Shown here: positions 4,301 to 56,451 of the stretch, piece by piece
Layout of the letters: each line of letters opens with the position of its first letter
How positions within the stretch are numbered: the first letter of the stretch is position 1
NCBI RefSeq assembly: GCF_037975245.1
Contig: NC_092570.1
Location: 203,501 to 267,500 of the forward strand
DNA length: 64,000 nt
From: Apostichopus japonicus
Taxonomy: Eukaryota; Echinodermata; Holothuroidea; Aspidochirotida; Stichopodidae
Direction: 5' to 3'
Position numbers and translations under genes: made by a program
The notes under the pieces: model-generated
Database searches by the model: none
Seen by the model: the letters and a program-made list of their open reading frames with translations, nothing else
Told to the model about the DNA's origin: nothing

Positions 4301-6297
4301 ATGCTTCTTATTACAGTAGTATCTAGCAGTGAATGTTTCTACATCATTTTTTCATGCCATGTTTCTTTTGGGTTCTCAAGATCATTTTTCGAAAGCTGTT
4401 TGTCAACCTTCAGAGTCAGACCTGCCAAACTTGGGAATCTAGGTGCAGTGGAAACTTGATTAGAATATATTGAATCTAGTATCTACCTGTAATGAATTTT
4501 GGATGCAAAATGTTCATGATTATGAGTGAAGACAAATAACAATGTTTACAGGTACCAGCAAGCTAGTGAGAGCTTCTCTTTCTCTCATCATTACAGAAAC
4601 AATGCAGCCCCTACCTGAAGCAAGTCCGGACTGGTCCTGACACACCAGATGCCTATATTGAGGATTTTGGCCCAATTGGGAGTGCCCTCTGCAATCAAGT
4701 ACAAAAGCTGAGAGCTCAGCCTGGTTTAGCTGTAAATAAACCAACTATCCAAATACCTCCGGTAGGCTGATAAATGCTCATCTTTACTCTGTGAAAAAAC
4801 ATGCTCAGTTACTTGGGGCAAAACCAAATATGATTACAGCCTGATAAATTCATTATTATTGCTCCTTCTACAGAAACTAATAAATAAAGAACTGTAACAG
4901 CCAAGGTTGTAGATGAAATTAGTATGGACAGATATCATAAAATAAAGAACTGTAACAGCCAAGGTTGTAGATGAAATTAGTATGGACAGATATCATAAAA
5001 TAAAGAACTGTAACAGCCAAGGTTGTACTGTAGATGAAATTAGTATGGACAGATATCATAAAATAAAGAACTGTAACAGCCAAGGTTGTAGATGAAATTA
5101 GTATGGACAGATATCATAAAATAAAGAACTGTAACAGCCAAGGTTGTAGATAAAATTAGTATGGACAGATATCATAAAATAAAGAACTGTAACAGCCAAG
5201 GTTGTTAGTAGTAATTAGTATGGACAGATATCATAAAATAAAGAACTGTAACAGCCAAGGTTGTAGATGAAATTAGTATGGACAGATATCATAAAATTAG
5301 AAGTTTGTCATTAGCGAGATGTGAAAAGGGACATATTTATGACAAGCTAGAGTTAGTTCCATAATAGTTGTGGCTGATAAAAAAATCACAGGCTGCATAA
5401 GTATTTCAAATTAATAACTGATATGTGTAATGGGCCTTACTTATGACTGACATGGCTACTAATTACAAATATATATTTGTGACAGATACAAGTAGAGGCT
5501 GATCACAGACACACCCACCTGGAGATAAGTGCAAAGGATATTACTGTATCCTCACAAGTACTTATGCAAGGTGCCTATTGAGCTCAATATTCACATTTAT
5601 GTTTTACTTCAGGAACAGTTACCCGAGCATTATCCAAAATAAGATATAAATGCATCTCTTTGATTTCTGATTACTTTACAGCCCAGGCAGTCTCCACTTG
5701 GTTCTGGGCCAAGAACCCCAACCTCTGGTTTATCAATGTCAAGGTCTCCTGGCTTTCCTCTGATGGGAGACATCAAAGGGCCAATCCCTAGGTCCATATC
5801 AGTCCCAGGGGGACCTTTGACCCCTACGGGGAAACAGTCCAAGTTCTCCCCAATGTCGTCGAGCATGGCACAGAAGTCAAAGTCCAGTGGGTCCTCAGTA
5901 AGTATTAGAGACAATATCTTCCTCAAGTTAACATTACTGTCTCTGACAGATGCCATTTGTCTTCTGAACCCACTGCCTCCACCCCTTTGCTAACCTGTAA
6001 CAAGAAAGAAAATGACATTTATTCTTTATTATCCAGGTTCTAATTGGTGGGATCAGTTCCAAACCAGGATCTGGCAAAGGTGGCTCCTCCTCCTCTTTGT
6101 CACCCAGCGGGCTCAGTAAAAGTGCTGCATTTACCTTCACCGGGTCCATGAGAGATGAATCTGGTCTTTCACAGAGTATGTCATCAGCTGAGGGAAGGAG
6201 ACGATCTGGTGAGGAAGGGGGTAACAATGGTGCTAGCATGCTGATGTCCCTGGCCCATGCAGCTACCATGCAAGCACCCTATAAAACAAAGGAATGA
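1270..6297 (+). CDS. TAF6: TAF6, TFIID subunit 6 (3' part, six exons)
   Basis: TAF6 is a core subunit of the general transcription factor TFIID. Its histone fold pairs with TAF9, and a HEAT-repeat domain follows. Visible here are exons 1270-1394, 1615-1747, 3589-3714, 4597-4761, 5682-5897 and 6037-6297. All have AG acceptors and GT donors, and phases agree throughout (about 341 residues plus TGA). The HEAT part is recognised by [35 protein letters not shown] and the stretch ending AEHLKSLVL, all close to the animal TAF6 HEAT domain. The last two exons form a Ser/Pro/Gly-rich low-complexity tail, as in other TAF6 proteins. The histone-fold exons lie left of the window, so the gene is partial. 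It converges on the angiomotin gene. The alternative is the paralogue TAF6L; the close HEAT match favours TAF6. Confidence 0.93.
1615..1747 (+). CDS. TAF6: TAF6 exon, HEAT domain (FSTSTNNIQ)
   Basis: The acceptor is cttccaatag and the donor GAG|GTAAGT. The first base completes the split Lys codon, then 44 codons run to [14 protein letters not shown] and the [12 protein letters not shown] stretch align with the conserved TAF6 HEAT core. Confidence 0.93.
2000..3450. repeat. 42-bp minisatellite in TAF6 intron
   Basis: About 34 copies of a 42-bp unit (core AATGAGGCAGGGGTAGGAAG followed by TCTTAACGGTGCATGGTACC). Variants include CTGAGG/ATGAGG and GGTACC/GTTACC/GAGCCT. A 332-bp block of eight units is duplicated head to tail (about 2190-2520 and 2522-2855). 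The array fills most of the intron between two HEAT-domain exons. Confidence 0.96.
3589..3714 (+). CDS. TAF6: TAF6 exon, HEAT domain ([10 protein letters not shown])
   Basis: The acceptor is gtctcatag and the donor CTG|GTGAGT. It has 42 codons in phase 0 at both ends. It follows an intron almost filled by the 42-bp array. The order [27 protein letters not shown] matches the family. Confidence 0.92.
4597..4761 (+). CDS. TAF6: TAF6 exon, end of HEAT domain
   Basis: The acceptor is cattacag and the donor CCG|GTAGGC. It has 55 codons, phase 0 at both ends. The string [18 protein letters not shown] corresponds to the conserved end of the TAF6 HEAT region. The following intron carries a 58-bp array. 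Confidence 0.92.
4882..5298. repeat. 58-bp tandem repeat in TAF6 intron
   Basis: Seven copies of a unit starting ATAAAGAACTGTAACAGCCA and ending GGACAGATATCATAAA. One copy has a 5-bp expansion (gtactgtag). Copies are nearly identical, implying recent amplification. Confidence 0.95.
5682..5897 (+). CDS. TAF6: TAF6 exon, Ser/Pro/Gly-rich tail
   Basis: The acceptor is ctttacag and the donor TCA|GTAAGT. It has 72 codons rich in Ser, Pro and Gly ([17 protein letters not shown]). No conserved domain is visible. Assignment rests on splice phase, strand and position between the HEAT exons and the stop exon. Confidence 0.88.
6037..6297 (+). CDS. TAF6: TAF6 terminal coding exon
   Basis: The acceptor is attatccag. 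It has 86 codons and a TGA, ending APYKTKE. Content is again Ser/Gly-rich. The stop-proximal sequence tataaaacaaaggaatg is repeated about 30 bases later in the 3' UTR, a small tandem duplication across the end of the reading frame. Confidence 0.88.
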   Translation, partial: VLIGGISSKPGSGKGGSSSSLSPSGLSKSAAFTFTGSMRDESGLSQSMSSAEGRRRSGEEGGNNGASMLMSLAHAATMQAPYKTKE

Positions 6298-6445
6298 GTC
6301 ATTGATGTTATAAAACAAAGGAATGTGCCAGAGGGTGGTATCAACAACTCAGTTGACAGTGTGGATTGATCAAATGTGGTGATGATGTTAGCAAACACTG
6401 TTAAAAGGAATATAGTGGAAACTGAATGACCAAAAGTAGCCAATG

Positions 6446-12824: not shown

Positions 12825-15800
12825 CTGTTGAAAAGAGAAAAAGTGGTGCTTTTATATAACTAGAAAGACCAGAACAAACCTAAAGAACATACACAGATGA
12901 TGAAACGGAACAATGCAATAATATTATAATAATGCAATCATATAACTGAAGTAAAATAAGCCCAAAATTATCTTGGTCACACAACAATTCAGGTATTTGA
13001 CCTAACTATAGACACAAACCTACCACACTTATAAAAAGTATGATTCTCTTTAAAATAAAATCACATTTGGGAGAGGATAGTAGGGGGGTACCATAAAAAC
13101 TGCAATTGCAAACCAATTTTCAAAAAATGATGCAAGAGTTCTGTTACCTAAATGCAGCAACAGTGTTAGGAAGAAAAAGAAAGTAAGGATAAAATGGGAA
13201 AAAGAGAAGCACAAATAGGAATGTAGGAACAAAAACATACAAGCTTTGCTTAATGTAGCGTGGTCTTGTCAGAGATGACAGGCAATGCCAAGACTCAACT
13301 GTTAGAGCTTACCCTTTCTTCAATTTCCTGGTCTAACTGCCTCAGTTTCTCATCCAGGGCTGTTCTCTCCTTGGACAAATCAGATTCGCTTCCACCTGGA
13401 GAGGCAGAGGAGACCAGAATGATATTTATTTTGCCAGATGAGGGAGATTGATACCATTTATCCTACTAACAGAATGACCTCCAAAAAATGCATTGGGGTT
13501 TCTGCACTTCATGAGGTGGATCTACACACATGCAGTTTACTTAACATTTCCATGAGGAATAATTGTGCTTACAAGGCTTTTAGACTGGTGTGATCTCAAA
13601 TGCTGTTTGACCTACTTATGAAGCAAAATTCTTTTAAGGGTGATCTGCATGCAACACAGAAAGTTCATTCAATCTTTACTTTGAAGTTTTGGATTTAAAA
13701 AGTTTGGGACTTTGATAGCTGCTGACTTCACATGACATTTGACCTCCACAATATATGCACCAAGTTTCTTACATTTACTAAGACAGATCTAGTACATACA
13801 AGGTCACAAGTTCAAGCAGGCTTTGTTTTTGGACTGTTTGTGTTACCATATCTCTACCACTGTTGGCCCTAAACGACTTTGGCCTAAAACAAAAAGATTC
13901 TTTTACTCACTAAGACGGATCTCTAGACATATCATGCAGCTGAATCAAATTTGAATACTGGAGTTGTGACTTTGACCTCAGATGACCATAACCTCTACAT
14001 AACACAAAAGGTTTCTTGCACTCACTAAGGTTATCTTTTACCTCCACAGCCAAAAAACACACGGTTCTAGCACTCAAAAAGATGAATCCACATACTATGA
14101 ACTACATACAAGACTTTAACCTATGTTGACCTTTGACCTCCACATAAGTAATAGGTGTATTGCATTAAGGTGTATCTATATATCATATCAAGTAGGAAGT
14201 CAATCCAAGCTTGGCTTTGGCTCTTTGACTTCCACCAATATCACTAGGGCTCTGAAACATACCAAGGAGATTTATTGCGTTTACGATGTTATCAGACTTT
14301 GACCTCTTTTGACGTTCGACCTCCACCAAATTCAATGGGCTTCTTGTACTCATCAAGTTGGATATATGTACCAATATGAAGCTCAACTATGATATCCTTC
14401 TTGAGTTATGGTGTTTACAATGAGTGTCACATACACACAAACATGCACTTACACATGACTGCATGGACTACTGTTGCCTTCCGGAATCAAAAATCAAAAA
14501 TACTTTTCAAAAACAATTGTAAATAGTTTCCCTCAAACTACAAGATTGTGAAAAGAAATGTACACATAGACATCTTTAACCCCAAACTTGGGACAGAAAA
14601 TGCTAAACACGGAACAGTTGATCAGCAAATTATTACAGTTTTAGTGGAAGAGAAGAGGGGAGGGGAGAACTTACTAGGATTTGTGTGTATGCGGATATGC
14701 TTGGAGGTTGAACATTGTAATATCAGTGTAGTAATGAAACCAAATTAGAAAAATAAATTCCAGAATTTTCAAGGATTGAATACATCCCAAGGTTTAAAGA
14801 AGTTTTGAACTTTCTCTTTTGTAAATTTCTTGATTGTATTAAACTCACTTGCACCCAGTGAGACTCCTGATGTTGTTACAGATGAGGGGTAGGAAGATAC
14901 CCCTGATTCCACCAAGCCTGGTATTCTTTCTTGTGAACCCGTCGGGGCAGCAGTGTGGCGGGCAAGGATAAGGTTCTGTTGTGAGCCAACAGGAGATAGT
15001 GACATCAAGCTTAAATTTTGCATAGAGACCACCGGTGACCTTGAAATGTTTTGATTAGATGAGTGAGGTGACCTCTGAGTTATATTGTGAAGAGAAGTGA
15101 CACTATTACCAGGAGAAGTCCTGTTGTTGAGGGAATCGGAAGAGTTTCTCCTAATATTTTGGACAGAAGAATTTGGGGAAATGGACGTGGGTCTAGATGA
15201 CGTGGATGAGAGTGATGAATCTCGTTCTTGAATTTGCTGGCGTAAGATTTGGATGAGCACTTCTTTCTGGTCAAGTTGAGCTTTGAGTTTGTTTAAACTG
15301 ATGGACAAAGGAAAAAGACTTTGACTGCCTCAGGATACTATTAAAGCAGCTGAAGCAAAACCAGTGATAACAGAATGACATGTAATGTGCTGCAAAAACA
15401 TTGCCATTCCACCTTACATTTCTACAGCAATAAATAAAAGACTGCCTTAAATTGTTCACAACATTTTAATGCAGGAAATATTTTTAACATGACACAGGTC
15501 TGAAACCAGTACCCTCAGGATAAGAAGTTCTGTGAGCCTTTAACTGATCTATCCTGAGCTAAATTACGGCAACTTCCTACAATTCCTTCTTTTGAATATA
15601 GTGTGGATGTAAACCAGACATATATATGATCAAGGAACCTTTAAATTTCTTACTTGGCATCCATGTCAGTCATTCTGTGTGGATTTGAATGGTCATTAGA
15701 CAGGTTTGAACGGTCACTGCTACCTTCAGCGGTTTCTCTGATGTGGAGGTCAGGAGAAACTCTTGGAATTTCTAAAGACTGGCGAAGAGTACATTCTTCT

Positions 15801-18800
15801 AAGTACTTTTGCTCCCACTGTGATGAAAACAGAAACAACAGTGAGTAAAGTTGATGTCTCTAGTTCCATTCACCCCCCTTCAACACCCTCTCCTCCCAAA
15901 AGTAGCTCAACAGACCCACAATTACTATATGCTATATTTTGATTTCCAAACTCTATATACACCTAAAGGTATTCAAGAGAGGAACACTTTATGTTCAATC
16001 TCTTTTACGATGAATTCTTCTGCATGACAGGAAAACTTACAATTAACCCATTACGCATATGTTACCTTGCTAACTTCAGCCTCCAGTCTTAATATGGTTG
16101 AATATTTTCCATTACATATACGTCACCATGCTAACTTCAGCCTCCAGTCTTAATATGGTTGAATATTTTCCATTACGCATACGTTACCTTGCTAACTTCA
16201 GCCTCCAGTCTTAACATGGTTGAATCTTTTCCATTATGCATACGTTACCTTGCTAACTTCAGCCTCCAGTCTTAACATGGTTGCATCTTTTCCATTACGC
16301 ATACGTTACCTTGTTAACTTCAGCCTCCAGTCTTAACATGGTTGCATCTTTTCCATTACGCATACGTTACCTTGTTAACTTCAGCCTCCAGTCTTAACAT
16401 GGTTGCATCTTTTCCATTACGCATACGTTACCTTGTTAACTTCAGCCTCCAGTCTCAACATGGTTGCATCTTTTCCATTACGCATACGTTACCTTGTTAA
16501 CTTCAGCCTCCAGTCTCAACATGGTTGCATCTTTTCCATTACGCATACGTTACCTTGCTAACTTCAGCCTCCAGTCTCAACATGGTTGCATCTTTTCCAT
16601 TACGCATACGTTACCTTGCTAACTTCAGCCTCCAGTCTTAACATGGTTGCATCTTTTCCATTACGCATACGTTACCTTGTTAACTTCAGCCTCCAGTCTT
16701 AACATGGTTGCATCTTTTCCATTACGCATACGTTACCTTGTTAACTTCAGCCTCCAGTCTTAACATGGTTGCATCTTTTCCATTACGCATACGTTACCTT
16801 GTTAACTTCAGCCTCCAGTCTTAACATGGTTGCATCTTTTCCATTACGCATACGTTACCTTGCTAACTTCAGCCTCCAGTCTTAACATGGTTGCATCTTT
16901 TCCATTACGCATACGTTACCTTGCTAACTTCAGCCTCCAGTCTTAACATGGTTGCATCTTTTCCATTACGCATACGTTACCTTGCTAACTTCAGCCTCCA
17001 GTCTTAACATGGTTGCATCTTTTCCATTACGCATACGTTACCTTGCTAACTTCAGCCTCCAGTCTTAACATGGTTGCATCTTTTCCATTACGCATACGTT
17101 ACCTTGCTAACTTCAGCCTCCAGTCTTAACATGGTTGCATCTTTTCCATTACGCATACGTTACCTTGCTAACTTCAGCCTCCAGTCTCAACATGGTTGCA
17201 TCTTTTCCATTACGCATACGTTACCTTGCTAACTTCAGCCTCCAGTCTCAACATGGTTGCATCTTTTCCATTACGCATACGTTACCTTGCTAACTTCAGC
17301 CTCCAGTCTCAACATGGTTGCATCTTTTCCATTACGCATACGTTACCTTGCTAACTTCAGCCTCCAGTCTCAACATGGTTGCATCTTTTCCATTACGCAT
17401 ACGTTACCTTGCTAACTTCAGCCTCCAGTCTCAACATGGTTGCATCTTTTCCATTACGCATACGTTACCTTGCTAACTTCAGCCTCCAGTCTCAACATGG
17501 TTGCATCTTTTCCATTACGCATACGTTACCTTGCTAACTTCAGCCTCCAGTCTCAACATGGTTGCATCTTTTCCATTACGCATACGTTACCTTGCTAACT
17601 TCAGCCTCCAGTCTCAACATGGTTGCATCTTTTCCATTACGCATACGTTACCTTGCTAACTTCAGCCTCCAGTCTCAACATGGTTGCATCTTTTCCATTA
17701 CGCATACGTTACCTTGTTAACTTCAGCCTCCAGTCTCAACATGGTTGCATCTTTTCCATTACATATACGTTACCTTGCTAACTTCAGCCTCCAGTCTCAA
17801 CATGGTTGCATCTTTTCCATTACATATACGTTACCTTGCTAACTTCAGCCTCCAGTCTCAACATGGTTGCATCTTTTCCATTACATATACGTTACCTTGC
17901 TAACTTCAGCCTCCAGTCTCAACATGGTTGCATCTTTTCCATTACATATACGTTACCTTGCTAACTTCAGCCTCCAGTCTCAACATGGTTGCATCTTTTC
18001 CATTACGCATACGTTACCTTGCTAACTTCAGCCTCCAGTCTCAACATGGTTGCATCTTTTCCATTACATATACGTTACCTTGCTAACTTCAGCCTCCAGT
18101 CTCAACATGGTTGCATCTTTTCCATTACATATACGTTACCTTGCTAACTTCAGCCTCCAGTCTCAACATGGTTGCATCTTTTCCATTACATATACGTTAC
18201 CTTGCTAACTTCAGCCTCCAGTCTCAACATGGTTGCATCTTTTCCATTACATATACGTTACCTTGCTAACTTCAGCCTCCAGTCTCAACATGGTTGCATC
18301 TTTTCCATTACATATACGTTACCTTGCTAACTTCAGCCTCCAGTCTCAACATGGTTGCATCTTTTCCATTACGCATACGTTACCATGCTAACTTCAGCCT
18401 CCAGTCTTAACATGGTTGCATCTTTTCCATTACGCATACGTTACCTTGCTAACTTCAGCCTCCAGTCTTAACATGGTTGCATCTTTTCCATTACGCATAC
18501 GTTACCTTGCTAACTTCAGCCTCCAGTCTTAACATGGTTGCATCTTTTCCATTACATATACAATACCTTGCTAACTTCAGCCTCCAGTCTCAATATGGTT
18601 GCATCCTTTTCTCGAATAAGATCAGCTAAAGACGTACTTTCATTATCTTCGAGTCCTGACACCCCTTCGTCAGGAGGAGTGTTCCTCTAAAGATAGACGA
18701 GAGAATGAAACCGTTTAGTGGTTTCGATGCCTTAATCTATTCATAGTCTGGTAGGTCATACATGTTAATATTCCTGAACTTGTGCAAAGCAAAATATATT

Positions 18801-21800: not shown

Positions 21801-24800
21801 AACCTATAACAGCATACCCATATATGCTCTCCAGAGCAAACTGTGACATGACAGCAACCTATAACAGCATACCCATATATGCTCTAAGAGCAAACTGTGA
21901 CATGACAGCAACCTATAACAGCATACCCTTATTCTCTAAGAGCACCTATTGCAGCATACCCATATGCTCTAAGCGCAAACTGTGACATGACAGCAACCTA
22001 TAACAGCATACCCATATATGCTCTAAGAGCAAACTGTGACATGACAGCAACCTATTACAGCATACCTATATGCTCTAAGAGCAAACTGTGACATGACAGC
22101 AACCTATTACAGCATACCCATATGCTCTAAGCGCAAACTGTGACATGACAGCAACCTATTACAGCATACCTATATGCTCTAAGAGCAAACTGTGACATGA
22201 CAGCAACCTATTACAGCATACCTATATGCTCTAAGAGCAAACTGTGACATGACAGCAACCTATTACAGCATACCTATATGCTCTAAGAGCAAACTGTGAC
22301 ATGACAGCAACCTATTACAGCATACCCATATGCTCTAAGCGCAAACTGTGACATGACAGCAACCTATTACAGCATACCTATATGCTCTAAGAGCAAACTG
22401 TGACATGACAGCAACCTATAACAGCATACCCATATATGCTCTAAGAGCAAACTGTGACATGACAGCAACCTATTACAGCATACCTATATGCTCTAAGAGC
22501 AAACTGTGACATGACAGCAACCTATTACAGCATACCCATATGCTCTAAGCGCAAACTGTGACATGACAGCAACCTATTACAGCATACCTATATGCTCTAA
22601 GAGCAAACTGTGACATGACAGCAACCTATTACAGCATACCTATATGCTCTAAGAGCAAACTGTGACATGACAGCAACCTATAACAGCATACCCTTATTCT
22701 CTAAGAGCACCTATTACAGCATACCCATATGCTCTAAGCGCAAACTGTGACATGACAGCAACCTATTACAGCATACCCATATGCTCTAAGCGCAAACTGT
22801 GACATGACAGCAACCTATTACAGCATACCTATATGCTCTCAGAGCAAACTGTGACATGACAGCAACCTATTACAGCATACCCTTATTCTCTAAGAGCACC
22901 TATTACAGCATACCTATATGCTCTAAGCGCAAACTGTGACATGACAGCAACCTATAACAGCATACCCATATATGCTCTAAGAGCAAACTATGACATGACA
23001 GCAACCTATTACAGCATACCCATATATGCTCTCAGAGCAAACTGTGACATGACAGCAACCTATAACAGCATACCCATATATGCTCTAAGAGCAAACTATG
23101 ACATGACAGCAACCTATTACAGCATACCCATATATGCTCTCCAGAGCAAACTGTGACATGACAGCATCCTATTACAGCATACCCATATATGCTTTCAGAG
23201 CAAACTGTGACATGACAGCAACCTATTATCAATATTAGCAAAACTGTTGGGTGCTCCACAATAAAACAAACTTAATTCTCATGACAAGGGATTGCATTTT
23301 TGTTTTCTCTCAATGAGCAAACAAAAGCTAGTAACTTTGTCCAAACATCCGGTGATGAAGCATTTTTTTAAATGCTTGCATACAAGAATGAAAATATAAG
23401 AACACTATTTTTGTGAAATGAGATGTTTCAGATTTCCTGGATGAGAGAAGCTGATGAAAGCTCCTTGCAATATATCTGTTTGCCAAAAGAAGAAAATTGC
23501 ATAGTAATACATCTTGATACACTGTTTAAAAACATAGAAACATAGAGCTGGTTGTCACGGAAACCAAGAAACACTCCCTATTGGCATGGCATTTTCTTTC
23601 AACATACCTTTTCAATTTTTAACCTCTCTATTTCTTTCTCCAAATGTTCCCTTACTTGCTGTTCCTTGATTTCTCTCTTCTGAATGGCTTTTTGCAGTGA
23701 TTCGACCAGACTCTCAAGTGCATTGGCCTTCTCCAGGTAACCTTGTCTTCGCTTGCACTGAAAACAAAATAGTAACGTCAAAAAAAAAAACAGATAAAAG
23801 AAAGAGAAAGACAAATGAAGCAAGGACAAGTTACTGAACAAACTTCATATCCACAGGTTGGTCCTGCTGCAGAAATGAAATGTTCAGAGGACTGACAGGT
23901 GTAATGCAGCAAAGAGACGTTTGCTTCGAATCCAAGGAAAAATGTTGAATAGACATGCAGCCTTCAGAAATTAAGTTTATTCAAATTATATATTTAAAAT
24001 GGGGACTGGGGTCAAAGGAAAACTGTTCTGTTCACAAGTGAAAGATATGAAATTGATTATCTAGCCCGTAAGCTATTGTTTCCAAAGGGTTCTTGTGCTG
24101 ATATATGCAAATTTAAGGATGGCAATCTTGTTTTCTGTTTTGTCCTGGCAGGCAGGACTTGGTTTTATCCTAACAAGATCATCCTTTATGGAATATGTTG
24201 ATATATTTATTCTTTACATCCCAGCAGAATCTCAATTGTTTGATCCTAACAGTGTCTTTGTTTTGATGATAGTATCACTGCTTTGATCCTAGCAGGATCT
24301 TCATGGTTTTTATACCTATTAGTCTATTTCATGATGCTGATCATAGAACAACCTTCACTGTGGCAGAATCTTAATTGTTTGATCCTAACAGTGTCTTTGT
24401 TTTGATGATAGTATCACTGCTTTGATCCTAGCAGGATCTTCATGGTTTTTACACCTATTAGTCTATTTCATGATGCTGATCATACAACAACCTTCACTGT
24501 AGCAGAATCTTTATTGTTTGATCCTAACAGTGTCTTTGTTTTGATGATAGTATCACTGCTTTGATCCTAGCAGGATCTTCATGGTTCTTATACCTATTAG
24601 TCTATTTCATGATGCTGATCATAGAACAACCTTCACTGTAGCAGAATCTTAATTGTTTGATCCTAACAGTGTCTTTGTTTTGATGATAGTATCACTGCTT
24701 TGATCCTAGCAGGATCTTCATGGTTTTTATACCTATTAGTCTATTTCATGATGCTGATCATAGAACAACCTTCACTGTAGCAGAATCTTAATTGTTTTGG

Positions 24801-34000: not shown

Positions 34001-37000
34001 AGGTTCAACATTTATTCTAGCCATTTATTTTCTTTTTAATTTTAAAATAAGCTCCAATTCATTTAACAAAAAAGTTTTGAGACATATATAGCTACGTAAT
34101 ATTCAAATTGCGGATTGTTCCTGACTTTGTTGAGCTGTATTCTTTATTTGGTCATATTTCTAATTCTATTCTATTTGAAATTTCCCATTTTATGATGAAA
34201 TTGAAAGCAGTGCTCATTCTCTTCTGGCATTGTTTCTTTGCATTCCTCGGAGTAGACTAACTTGCATGATGGGAGGACGAGGAATTACTGTAGTCCACTA
34301 AAACTTTCTTCATCACAGGAGGAGGGGAAGATACACAGAAGTGCACCTCTGATACAATCCCTGCATTCCATGCATGCTATTCTTGACAAGTGAGATGAAG
34401 GGATCCGGAATCCTGGAATGTGTCAAGGAACACCTGCATATTACACAGTACTAAAGTAAAGACAACTACAACAGTGGAAGACAAGCTGGTATATCAGATA
34501 TATATCTATGTTTGTGATGTAGAGCTACTAACTCTGATACATCAGACAAACACCATTGTAGAGAGATTCAAACAATAATGTACAGTAGGTAATTTCTTAT
34601 TCTTGGTCACAGCCTATGATCCTAACAAAATAGCTCAAAGACATCTACCATAGAAGGCATGCTTGAAATTCTGCTGCTTGGAATGTAAGTGTTCTAACTG
34701 TGATACATATTAAGATGGACGATGACAGAAAAATCTCTGTTTTTCATATATATTGTAGTTTATTACCAAGCAACACATTGTTTGAATTTTTCAAATAGCA
34801 CACCAGGAAGTGATCAAAAAGGGGAATTGAAACGTTGTTTCTTCCATCTCCGTAATTGATACAAATTAGGAATATTGCAAACACTGCAACAACTCAGGTC
34901 AGTGAATTCATGACATCACTGTGATGATCTTATCTGTAGTGTACTTAATAGCACTCAGGTCAGTGAATGACATCACTGTGATGATCTTATCTGTAGTGCA
35001 CTGTTCAGCACTCAGGTCAGTGAATGACATCACTGTGATGATCTTATCTGAAGTGTACTGTTCAGCACTCAGGTCAGTGAATGACATCACTGTGATGATC
35101 TTATCTGTAGTGTACTGTGCAGCACTCAGGTCAGTGAATGACATCACTGTGATGATCTTATCTGTAGTGTACTTTTCAGCACTCAGGTCAGTGAATGACA
35201 TCACTGTGCTGATCTTATCTGTAGTGCACTGTTCAGCACTCAGGTCAGTGAATGACATCACTGTGATGATCTTATCTGTAGTGTACTGTTCAGCACTCAG
35301 GTCAGTGAATGACATCACTGTGATGCTCTTATCTGAAGTGCACTGTTCAGCACTCAGGTCAGTGAATGACATCAATGTGAAGATCTTATCTGTAGTGTAC
35401 TGTGCAGCACTCAGGTCAGTGAATAACATCACTGTGATGATCTTATCTGTAGTGCACTTTTCAGCACTCAGGTCAGTGAATGACGTCACTGTGATGATCT
35501 TACCTGTAGTTTACTGTTCAGTACTAAGGTCAGTGAATGACATCACTGTGATGATTTTATCTGTAGTGTACTGTTCAGCACTCAGGTCAGTGAATGACAT
35601 CACTGTGATGATCTTATCTGTAGTGCCCTGTTCAGCACTCAGGTCAGTGAATGACATCACTGTGATGATCTTATCTGTAGTTTACTGTTCAGCACTCAGG
35701 TCAGTGAATGACATCACTGTGATGATCTTATCTGAAGTGCACTGTTCAGCACTCAGGTCAGTGAATGACATCACTGTGATGATCTTATCTGTAGTGTACT
35801 TTTCAGCACTCAGGTCAGTGAATGATATCACTGTGCTGATCATATCTGAAGTTCACTGTTCAGCACTCAGGTCAGTGAATGACATCACTGTGATGATCTT
35901 ATCTGTAGTGTACTGTTCAGCACTCAGGTCAGTGAATGACATCACTGTGATGATCCTATCTGTAGTGTACTGTTCAGCACTCAGGTCAGTGAATGACATC
36001 ACTGTGATGATCTTATCTGTAGTGTACTGTTCAGCACTCAGGTCAGTGAATGGCATCACTGTGATGATCCTATCTGTAGTGTACTGTACAGTATGGAGCT
36101 GTGCGTGCATTTCATGTCAGCATAACTGTTATTTTAGTTTAATTTTACGGCGCAATGTTCAAGATAAATAGATAATTAATGTCATTATCGTTTTTTATGA
36201 CATTTGCAATGATTTCCCAATATGAATGTGCTCACCTTAGTTGTCATGGCACAATAATAATCATGATAGTCTCAAACATAGGTTAATATAACATCCATTA
36301 GAAACATCCAAACAAAGTAGAAGTGCTTGTATGCACTACTGTTGAGTCAGATATAAACATTACTTGTTCCGTTCATCATAAATCCAACAGAAAGGTCACA
36401 ATGAGTTTGAAATTCAACCCCATTTGAACTCAATCAAGTGGTCAGTCTACAGTAGCTTCCACAATTTCTTAACTACATTTAATGCCTATTGTGATTATTC
36501 ACATATACAACTCAAGGTTTGGGATTCAGGAGGAATCATTCTAGCCCAACTTCACGGCGGTCCGCAAACGGTACTTCCACACTGTGCCAACACAAGTAGC
36601 AGTGTGTGCGCTACTGGAAGTAATACTCACACAAAGTTTTTCACTCAAGCATACACGCATTTCCTATTCGTACCACACATTTACTGTAAATGCTACATGG
36701 ACGGTATCAAGACATTTCCGCCCAAAAACTCGCCCTAAGCGACGTCCATGCCCCAATTGTAATTTGCATGTGGATTCTTTCCTCATGTAGACATTAGGTC
36801 ATTCATGTCTGACATGTCTTCCAGTTCCAACACTTACTGTACTGTTGCATTTATCAGCTTATATAATATATATAAATAATGCATGCATTCAAACATGTTT
36901 TACTAATCTTTTATCTTCTTTTTAGAGCTTCCGAACTCTATGATGGAGGACTATAAAAGTCATGAAACATTTCTTTGAACTGGGTCAACACTTACACCAC

Positions 37001-52730: not shown

Positions 52731-55158
52731 ACACACCCAAAACACTATCGACGAATGGAGGTTAACCGCTGAGTACCGGTAGTAGTTAATGAGTTCATTC
52801 GTTGTCAACATTTCATAGCCGAGACACTTGAGCATATGTGGAAAATGGAAACTTTCAACGGTTTCAACTTTTACGTCATTCCTTTGAAATGAAACTACAC
52901 TATCAAAGCAGTGTAGATCAATATCGTATTAACTTGTACCAAACCCAAACCGGACTGGATTTAATCATGAAGAGGTGTCACCCCTGCGGTCCTTGAAGCC
53001 TCTCATCATCTGTGGGGGAGTGAGGTTCCTCTCCCAGATTAAATAAAATATGATACCTGGGAATGTTCTGAGGAATATTAATCCCACAACCACATCGCTC
53101 TCTTAATTCTTATCCAGCTTAACTCGAAGTAGAGGAGTTTCTGGAAAGTGCTTCTGGAAACTTAGTGATTTGAATCCTGCTAAAATTCGGGGTCAATTCT
53201 GATGACCTTTAAAAGCTTCTATACCTTATTAGTAGTATACATTTCAGATTGTAAATAAGGTTATCCGTTTAACGAAATTAATCTGACCGCGTCATGGACT
53301 TTGAGACTAGTTTTTCCTTGGTAACTGATCGTTGTACACAATACAGAACGATACTCAAGTAAGTTAGTTGACGAGGACACATAAGTGTATGTTTCTATAA
53401 GTGTCTGTGTGGAAAGACGAACTTTTCATGGTCAATCCTGCTTTGAAACTCAACAAAAATTTAGGAAAAAAGTTGTTTTTTTTGTTATTCGTTGTTGAAC
53501 AATGTCGGTGCGGTATACCTGAACTGTAGAGAGACAAACAAAGGCTATGCGACGTAACTGGTGAAGGAAACCAGCAACGGTGGTTTTTACAGAGCGAAAA
53601 AAAAAAAGCTTGAAGGCCTAACAACTTTTCTGGTTCTGTCTTTGGTGGTAAGTTTGACTCATAAAATCACAGTGGATATTTGTTTAGGAATTAAAGCAGT
53701 TATTCTATTATGCCTATACATGAGTGGAATGATGCAAAATATAAATAAGCCTAAAATAAAGAGTATAGACCTTCATCACGTAAATTGGATGCCAACTTAA
53801 AGCCATTATGACACGCATGCACCAAGCGATGAAGTTGGAAGGTAGAGGCGGGGTAGACCAGGAAGAGGAGAAGGGGGTGGGGGATCGGGACTCGGGGTCA
53901 GAGCAACAGCTGCTAACGACACCCGGTGTAAGACAGCCGTCAAAGCTATCATGCTAGTAGTCGAATATACTGTTTACTATATATGGTTACTACTGTTATT
54001 CTTTGTAGTTCGTGCAAAACGGAGAGTGTCATTTTTCCGTTGAGGAGCAAACCGTAAGATCACCCGGGCCCAACAATGAATCCACTACGCAGTTCGCACC
54101 ACAAAAAAAGTTGCGATTAACTAAAACGGTACTCGAAGTCACATAGTTAGGTATATAGTTATATATTATCAGCGTTGTCCCCAAAATATGCTATAAAGTC
54201 AGATAATGGTCAACCTTGCTCAAATTTCAACAAGTATTTTCAGTACTGCCGCTCTGAAAGCATGTTATTTACTCTGAGATATTCAATTATTGTCTGTTTT
54301 AGACCTCCTCACTGACAAGGGATCAAGCCATGTAGGAAAGCAGCATTTCAAAACTTCTAACTACTTTGGGGCCAAACCGATCAATTACATAAACAAAAGA
54401 CAAAGGGATGAAAAGGAAATGGTGTGGTACTATTCATATAAACAAAGAGGCCCGCATAGTGTAGTGAGTGAATATAATAATTAGTATCTATCATTATTTC
54501 TTCTTATGTAGACAAACTCCACGTATATTACGTGCTACTTCATTCCTCCAATAACGATCTCGTTGGGTTGTCTCGTATTCGGCGGATACTGCTAAGTGAC
54601 TTGAAAGGGAAGACGATCTTGTGTCTGCTTATTTTCCGACTCGAGAAAAATTGTGGTGAGAAGGTCAAATAATGGCCAATCCAGTTCAAACCTCATGAAG
54701 CCTTTGACTGTAATCTTCAAAACGTTTTACTTGGGCAGACATTGAATTGTCTAAATGGACCCTCCTTTTTGTTTATGTTTGTCAGAAACTACTAGTTTTC
54801 CAAACTTTAGCATACTAATTTCGCAGCAATTACTGAATACCTTTACTCTTTAAAAAATCGACAGATAGGTCCATACGTTGCCATAGACGAAGGCAGCTGC
54901 AACACTTTCACAGTAGATGTTCCTATATATAGCCTCAGTTGTTTGCATATATTATTCTGTAGACGAACTATTTTGTTATGCTCATCAACTAACTAGCGTT
55001 ACTATTTAATCATACTTTCTGTTTCGAAAGCGTACAAGAAAAATTACATCCTCGGTAGATAGCTTTATGCTAATATTGTTAAATAGTATATCTGATTACA
55101 GGTGAACTAAGAATTGGTAATTATAGCAATAAACATAACCAGCTAGGGCAAAAATAAT
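52731..55158. other. No gene seen
   Basis: Upstream of the intronless gene. Short frames only (for example 53561-53800 and 54290-54484) with no recognisable content. A TAG lies 15 bases before the gene's ATG in frame. Confidence 0.5.
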
Positions 55159-56451
55159 ATGGAGCAAGAAGAGGCAATCGATTCGTCGAAAGGCAGAACA
55201 GCAAAACGTGAAACAGATGGAGCCCTTCCAAAATTGAACTACACCAAGAAAGAGATCTCTCTGCTGCACGAACGAACGACCGGGTTTCGTGATAAAGAAT
55301 CTTCAAAGTTGGATAAGAACGCTAACTATTTAGGAGGATATTCAGCGAAGAGGAAATCAGTTAACACCGAAAGCGATTCCTCCATTCAGTCCCCACGGGG
55401 AATTTCATCTAAAACAGTTGAGGAAATTTCTGCTTTCCCAATTTCCAACGAAGGAGAACATTCCGTCTATAAAGGAGATTACACTGGTTATAAAAGGACG
55501 TTATCGACAAAAACGGAAACTTCAAACCTCAACGATATAAATGTTCTCAATACTATTGGGAAACCTGGAACTACTTTAGTCGATTTTGGGTTCATGAAAG
55601 TCGATTGTTTGAAACATCTAGCAAGTACAAGTGATTGGAACCAACCGTCGCCACCTGTTGTTAATATTCACGACAAATTTGCCAAATCCAATCGTTTCTT
55701 CGCAACAAAGCTAGACGACGATGCACTGTCCAGAAGTAGTTTGATTAGTAAATATGAAAGACAAGAAGCGCTTGACGTTAAATGTGACGTCACAATTTCA
55801 GCAAAGCCTGGTGCGGCCTTTGGAATTAATGAGGATGAACCAAATTTAGAGAAGAGTGTCATTCATGAGCAAGAAATGCATGAAAAGTATAAACAATTAG
55901 CACTGAGAACCGAAGATCATCTTAAACAAGCAAAAAGAGATAAACACGTGACATTTCGTGAAGATCTAAATGAAATATTTCTTTTGAAAAGTCGGGGAAA
56001 TACTACCGAAACAGATGAAAGTTTAAAAACACATGGTGTTACTAGACTACCTACCATTGGTCAAAACTACAGAAGTAGAATTTTCTGCAAGAAAAGTCTG
56101 CACTACAATATAAGTCAACCGTGGTATGACAAACGCCCTCGGATTAAATACCGCTCTAACTATGAAGCTATAAGTAATACAGTCCCTGTTTCCAGCATAA
56201 AAGCAAAACCTTCTCAACAAATTTCCAAGAGCCGTCCGCAATATAGCAATTCATGGAAACCAAAAGTATCAATCACGTGGGCCGATGATCAGCCAATGAG
56301 AGTAGAAATATTACCTGGCTACCATGACAACCGAATTGGGGTAAGTTTACGAGAAGATGATGACCTTTGGCCTCAGATCAAACTTAGGGTCATTTTGAGA
56401 ATGCTTGATGGACAACATTATCGTCAAGAAATTAAAAGATGGAGTTTGTAA
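55159..56451 (+). CDS. Intronless 430-residue protein, unknown family
   Basis: This is the longest non-repetitive frame in the window. The ATG has a good context (A at -3, G at +4) and an in-frame TAG 15 bases upstream, so the start is well defined. The protein is hydrophilic, Ser/Lys/Glu-rich, with no signal peptide or membrane segment, and probably largely disordered. KHVTFREDLNEIF at residues 262-274 fits the PP1-docking RVxF consensus followed by an acidic/hydrophobic extension. A more ordered C-terminus contains SITWADDQPMRVEILPG (371-387) and WPQIKLRVILRML (404-416). An AATAAA lies at 56987-56992. No family was recognised. It could be a single-exon orphan gene, a retrocopy, or one large exon of a longer gene. 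PP1 binding is inference from the motif only. Confidence 0.75.
   Translation: MEQEEAIDSSKGRTAKRETDGALPKLNYTKKEISLLHERTTGFRDKESSKLDKNANYLGGYSAKRKSVNTESDSSIQSPRGISSKTVEEISAFPISNEGEHSVYKGDYTGYKRTLSTKTETSNLNDINVLNTIGKPGTTLVDFGFMKVDCLKHLASTSDWNQPSPPVVNIHDKFAKSNRFFATKLDDDALSRSSLISKYERQEALDVKCDVTISAKPGAAFGINEDEPNLEKSVIHEQEMHEKYKQLALRTEDHLKQAKRDKHVTFREDLNEIFLLKSRGNTTETDESLKTHGVTRLPTIGQNYRSRIFCKKSLHYNISQPWYDKRPRIKYRSNYEAISNTVPVSSIKAKPSQQISKSRPQYSNSWKPKVSITWADDQPMRVEILPGYHDNRIGVSLREDDDLWPQIKLRVILRMLDGQHYRQEIKRWSL

Follow-up and report, generated by a model that had tools for sequence, protein, structure and literature searches.

Tandem copies of an exon-intron boundary in the AMOT gene of Apostichopus japonicus, a mirage minisatellite in an echinoderm

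Introduction

In the holothurian Apostichopus japonicus, the intron that follows one coding exon of AMOT, a scaffold of the Hippo pathway, presents a puzzle: the true 5' splice site is followed by 41 additional donors, the majority of which pair better with U1 than the true site itself. How did such an array arise, which donor does the spliceosome take, and does the array serve the gene or is it only borne by it? An initial annotation, made from the DNA letters, had left two answers side by side, namely that splicing picks the first donor of a series, or that the array controls AMOT output through nonsense isoforms. Here, we analysed the locus within a window of 64,000 nucleotides (C10:203501-267500, forward strand) of a genome of 671.6 Mb in 35 contigs, and compared it with other loci of the same genome. 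Tandem repeats across exon-intron boundaries have been described in lancelets under the name of "mirages" (PMC3087553, PMC3902484). In our reading, which we hold to be probable, the AMOT array is such a mirage, born by chance, grown by turnover and tolerated since the first donor is used.

The array exon and its boundary

The four AMOT exons of Table 1, when joined, give a single open frame of 320 residues that terminates at a stop codon, and the joined protein aligns with positions 1-189 of the 200 in the Pfam profile Angiomotin_C (E 6.9e-25; 88.2 bits, with a cut-off of 23.5). Since this match crosses the K/W junction at which the array exon ends, the boundary at 18567, on which the initial annotation had made its proposal depend, is sound. 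The intron that bears the array comprises 2749 nt, 2519 of which belong to the array; as the unique remainder amounts to only 230 nt, the unduplicated intron would have measured about 248 nt.

Table 1. Features of the AMOT locus (positions within the window) and of the two CDK11 copies (positions on contig C11). Slashes mark splice junctions.
Feature	Position	Strand	Remarks
AMOT exon preceding the array exon (exon 6 of the initial annotation)	23608..23757	-	donor AAAAG/GTATGT
AMOT array exon (exon 7 of the initial annotation)	18567..18686	-	120 nt, ends in phase 0
Coding exon end, exon part of the repeat unit	18567..18609	-	43 nt
True 5' splice site	18561..18566	-	GTATTG, after AAG
In-frame TAA reached on decoy use	18552..18554	-	
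Array: intron start, then 41 exon-end copies with GT donors	16048..18566	-	decoys 18505 down to 16065
Unique intron remainder	15818..16047	-	230 nt, with acceptor
AMOT exon after the array exon	15654..15817	-	WEQKYLEE..., acceptor CACAG/TGGGAG
Terminal AMOT exon	14769..15297	-	with stop codon
CDK11 copy A	C11:6325096-6327820 (near 6.33 Mb)		12 donors including the true one (11 decoys)
CDK11 copy B	C11:9611216-9613937 (near 9.61 Mb)		11 donors including the true one (10 decoys)

Structure, turnover and confinement of the array

Tandem Repeats Finder delimits the array at 16048-18611, with a period of 61, 42.0 copies, 98% matches, 0% indels and a score of 4678. On the minus strand, 42 donor positions follow one another at an exact spacing of 61 nt, the true donor at 18566 and then the decoys; the count of about 42 decoys that had been given before thus falls to 41, and the earlier range of 16049..18686 takes in the whole exon. 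The unit of 61 bp is composed, as had been proposed, of the exon end (43 nt) and the intron start (18 nt), with the donors in the sense orientation. Its consensus differs from the true exon by one G fewer in the AAAAGG run and by one A/G change. All 41 decoys have GT. The bases at their junctions read CAAG/GT in 39 and CATG/GT in two. Where the true donor has GTATTG, 39 decoys start their intron part with GTAACG; the two exceptions are a copy with GTGACG and the final copy, with GTAACA. Since the final copy, which adjoins the old intron, also starts with GTAAC, this may be the ancestral form, from which the true site would have drifted.

Eleven distinct sequences were found among the 42 units. 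Adjacent units are more alike than units taken in all pairs (identity of 0.984 vs 0.961), a value that none of 2000 shuffles of the unit order reached, and rare variants lie mostly in the first unit and in the last few. The array is thus homogenised inside, block by block, with its edge units exempt, as in mirage minisatellites, and this likeness of neighbours, together with the variants at the edges, is the pattern of ordinary minisatellite turnover.

Searching the genome with the 120-bp array exon, we obtained one full and at least 41 partial matches, all 42 of them within C10:219566-222186, i.e., the AMOT locus; the matches of a 184-bp array fragment, at least 19 in number, all fall inside the array. 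A dispersed repeat or mobile element is thereby rejected, and with it the dispersed occurrence of the unit that would have spoken against an origin from the exon. Eight exon regions with 40-bp flanks (six from AMOT and two from a second gene) were also searched against the window (E <= 0.01); of those from AMOT, the array exon alone is repeated.

A second array of this kind in CDK11

We examined a sample of kinase domains at 44 loci (46 of 134 kinase matches, hand-picked as partial-domain matches; 60.5 kb in total). These loci contain eight arrays with a period of at least 20 and at least three copies, two of which cover an end of the match, both on the donor side and both in CDK11 (identified by its best match in PDB, Cyclin-dependent kinase 11B, at E 4.2e-40; an NCBIfam search found the piece to be kinase-like and nothing more specific). 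The two gene copies, A and B, lie 3.3 Mb apart on the same contig (Table 1). Their unit comprises 70 bp, namely 63 nt of exon end followed by GTGAGCA; GT is present in all 21 decoys, and GTGAGC is common to the true donor and 20 of the 21. The decoys were located by the pattern GGTG[AG]GC, their spacing of 67-70 excludes a missed unit, and the genome search with the CDK11 exon agrees, with two full and 21 partial copies (11 + 10), all in the two arrays. In copy B, joining the first donor to the following exon (EYSVKIDMWSVGCIF...) gives a phase 0 junction.

One variant with an identical 3-nt deletion occurs in both arrays, so the array is probably older than the gene duplication, unless gene conversion took place. 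The 77-codon exon differs between the two gene copies at six codons, all of them silently; identity amounts to 94.7% for the intron upstream and to 93.5% for the unique downstream piece. Beyond its boundary array, copy A carries a further array with a period of 41 bp and at least 22 copies, which is absent from copy B.

The units of these arrays were also compared with their consensus. In the two first copies, four changes were seen, all silent, with no amino-acid change and no indel, whereas the 21 decoy copies show 13 amino-acid codon changes beside 12 silent ones, and four of these copies carry indels (their other changes were left out of the count). Fisher's test on silent vs amino-acid changes gives p = 0.11, or 0.044 if the indel copies are taken as disrupted, for copies that are non-independent. 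Copy A has 4 clean units among its 12 and copy B 5 among its 11, and a clean first unit in both would arise by luck with p of about 0.15. The codon contrast, with its small numbers, weakly favours the first donor as the one in use.

Relation to described boundary repeats

The AMOT and CDK11 arrays share with the lancelet mirages a unit that spans the exon-intron boundary and copies that carry splice signals, and the AMOT array is accordingly a member of this described kind. In lancelets, Adh3 data and globin RT-PCR are reported to suggest that regular splicing is undisturbed (PMC3087553, PMC3902484), although the same authors describe the copies as possible cryptic splice sites (PMC3087553), and TnC and PGBD5 were added as further cases (PMC3902484). 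The differences are of host and of scale: the arrays described here are from an echinoderm, lie on the donor side both times and hold 41 (AMOT) and 11/10 (CDK11) extra copies, whereas the two haplotypes of the lancelet BflGb6 are reported with 6 and 3 repeat units. As regards length instability, a further trait of mirages, the AMOT array was seen in one haplotype, and the two CDK11 loci have 12 and 11 donors. With a boundary-spanning class already described and a second case within 44 sampled kinase loci, the view of the AMOT minisatellite as unusual has to be corrected; new, as far as we have seen, are the echinoderm host, the number of copies, the genes concerned and the pair of arrays in CDK11. 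Mirages in two unrelated echinoderm genes suggest a general by-product of a high birth rate of minisatellites rather than a lancelet peculiarity. Among the literature matches listed, none used "mirage" outside lancelets, though such a use may still exist, and the search for Angiomotin together with minisatellites returned nothing; published passages on intronic minisatellites of Caenorhabditis elegans (PMC4039745) and abalone (PMC6905558) do not deal with copies of a boundary.

Three further systems come close to the AMOT array. In human genes within segmental duplications, internal tandem repeats are described at exon-intron boundaries (PMC2812944), i.e., tandem repeats crossing such a boundary outside lancelets, as in AMOT; there they alter gene structure and may form novel introns, whereas AMOT keeps its junction in frame and its intron grew. 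Tandem duplication that copies splice signals has also been described as a route of intron gain (PMC4974935). The AMOT array likewise repeats splice signals in tandem, but no new intron is evident between its copies, since the open frame uses the K/W junction and the Angiomotin_C match continues through it; instead, the existing intron was enlarged to 2749 bp from an original length of about 248. Finally, the human gene IFI6 (6-16) carries a minisatellite that gives multiple splice donors (Turri 1995, cited in PMC4526556), a donor array at an exon end like that of AMOT, and two of its downstream repeat units are reported as donors in alternative mRNAs (PMC4526556). Downstream donors are thus used in IFI6, whereas in AMOT the use of any decoy is predicted to bring a stop.

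Decoy strength and the use of the first donor

The true AMOT donor has no advantage in either of the two properties that we computed. The duplex energy with the 5' end of U1 is -6.5 kcal/mol for the true donor and -7.9 kcal/mol for 38 of the 41 decoys (the three remaining decoys have -6.4, -6.5 and -6.5), so that the true donor, as had been noted, is no better than the decoys and in fact pairs more weakly than 38 of them; for reference, the donors of the neighbouring AMOT exons reach -6.8 and -4.7 and a consensus donor -14.5 kcal/mol. For the 9-nt site, the predicted probability of being unpaired has a median of 0.028 among the decoys (range 0.003-0.071), compared with 0.011 in the true donor, and in CDK11 the values for true donor vs decoys are 0.0010 vs 0.0019 and 0.0017 vs 0.0025. 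Masking of the decoys by RNA structure is thus unsupported on the median, single decoys nevertheless being less accessible than the true site. As neither measure gives the true site an edge, neither explains accurate splicing, and position remains: the true donor is transcribed first and yields an exon of 120 nt, compared with 181 to 2621 nt if a decoy were used. Long exons are disfavoured by exon definition.

We propose, as the probable course, that a stretch of about 61 bp straddling the boundary was duplicated in tandem by chance, and that the array may then have grown within the intron by unequal exchange or slippage, together with local homogenisation. The outermost donor, transcribed first and giving the 120-nt exon with the upstream acceptor, would be the one used, and the array would persist because the extra copies then leave with the intron; it is probably near-neutral. 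The first of the two earlier answers, that splicing picks the first donor, is weakly favoured by the CDK11 comparison and by the published statements on lancelet mirages. SF2 is said, in the title of a paper, to activate proximal donors. Together with the downstream donors used in IFI6, this suggests that a "first donor wins" rule is not universal. If the outermost donor is indeed taken, the AMOT and CDK11 arrays would be natural experiments on how the spliceosome does so.

A less probable, indeed rather unlikely, course is that the first donor dominates while a steady minority of transcripts uses decoys and gives a mostly degraded nonsense isoform, in which case an array length that is itself unselected would weakly tune the AMOT dose. 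The stronger U1 pairing of 38 decoys and the higher median accessibility of the decoys speak for such leakage, as does the use of downstream repeat donors in IFI6 (PMC4526556). However, GT is intact in every decoy of AMOT (41/41) and CDK11 (21/21), although costly leakage could favour disabled units, and in lancelets splicing is reportedly undisturbed by mirages (PMC3087553, PMC3902484).

The second of the earlier answers, that the array is kept as a control of AMOT by nonsense isoforms, with splicing factors altering decoy use, we consider very unlikely. We computed the isoforms that retain 1, 2, 3, 5, 10 or 41 units, and all six stop at the same TAA, after ...EVSKVLYM. An in-frame stop on decoy use had been foreseen correctly, but the TAA that the frame reaches first is the fifth codon past the exon, in the first intron segment (AAG GTA TTG TAT ATG TAA). 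Since further exon junctions lie downstream of it, such isoforms are expected to be NMD targets lacking the C-terminal part, which speaks for a switch. Nevertheless, this outcome follows from the stop at the intron start, so selection is not needed to account for it, and the same arrangement is present in the unrelated gene CDK11; positive evidence for the control of AMOT output was not found here, which leaves it unsupported. Just as improbable is that the number of decoys sets the share of AMOT transcript lost, i.e., a nonsense-isoform control adjustable by length, in which polymorphism of the array would tune Hippo signalling between individuals. Multiplication of the copies by mis-assembly, for which no sign was found, is highly improbable in view of the exact period over 42 units, the block-structured variants and the same class of structure, with differing copy numbers, at two CDK11 loci.

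Array density and boundaries hit by chance

The window is unusually rich in arrays, with unrelated ones besides that of AMOT. In it, 19 non-overlapping arrays (period of at least 20, at least three copies) were found, 17 of them within the first 36.1 kb (1-36091), and tandem repeats cover 25% of it, vs 10.6% of 14 arbitrary 10-kb pieces, or 3.7% when one wholly tandem piece is set aside. The window begins about 0.2 Mb from the first base of its contig. Where arrays are so abundant, a few are bound to lie across a boundary, and these may be tolerated provided that splicing takes the outer donor. With a random seed unit, 0.27 arrays would be expected to cross AMOT ends in the window and one was observed, the calculation using the 12 ends of six exon regions, some of which, for instance at the stop codon and at the two regions further upstream, are unverified as splice sites. 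At the 44 kinase loci, two arrays, representing one event, cross match ends, vs 0.63 expected. If arrays overlap exon ends more often than random seeding predicts, the excess is thus no more than modest.

On the acceptor side, no array (period of at least 20 and at least three copies, or the shorter ones listed) crosses a 5' match end at the 44 kinase loci, exon ends being taken from the Pfam match and inner ends left out in two loci with two matches. Tandem exon fragments were also sought by eye, a procedure that short copies may escape: none was seen among the chaperonin matches (74 of 74 candidates scored), and the myosin matches (65 of 186 scored) gave one overlapping pair. This pair (C18:5064326-5064493 and 5065211-5065447) consists of same-strand myosin-head matches about 0.7 kb apart, at profile positions 178-232 and 188-267, which overlap by about 45 profile positions and are perhaps alternative or duplicated exons.

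Further observations

The piece C2:1000001-1010000 is tandem repeat over its entire 10 kb and satellite-like. In the window, a 57-bp (19-codon) array of 21 copies at 34892-36091 contains a plus-strand open frame of 421 residues as well as long minus-strand frames. Downstream of AMOT, two coding-like exons of a second gene occupy 5630-6278 on the minus strand, with no Pfam match at E <= 1; in this region, a 17-bp repeat occurs at 6280-6296 and 6309-6325, 29 bp apart, which lies close to the likely acceptor of a coding-like minus-strand exon and is possibly an early two-copy duplication of a boundary. A stop-to-stop open frame of 434 residues at 55147-56451 on the plus strand also has no Pfam match at E <= 1.

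Contig C35 (16,099 bp) appears to be a mitochondrial genome, whose code and gene order we take as those of an echinoderm; lancelets differ in both. With nad1 and nad2 on the plus strand, it resembles sea urchins and sea cucumbers but not sea stars. Labelled by reading the translations, its genes follow in the order cox1, nad4L, cox2, atp6, cox3, nad3, nad4, nad5, nad6 (minus strand) and cob, then nad1 and nad2 (plus strand), and cox1 has AAA codons at residues 2 and 11, the latter being the Asn of FSTNHKDIG under translation table 9.
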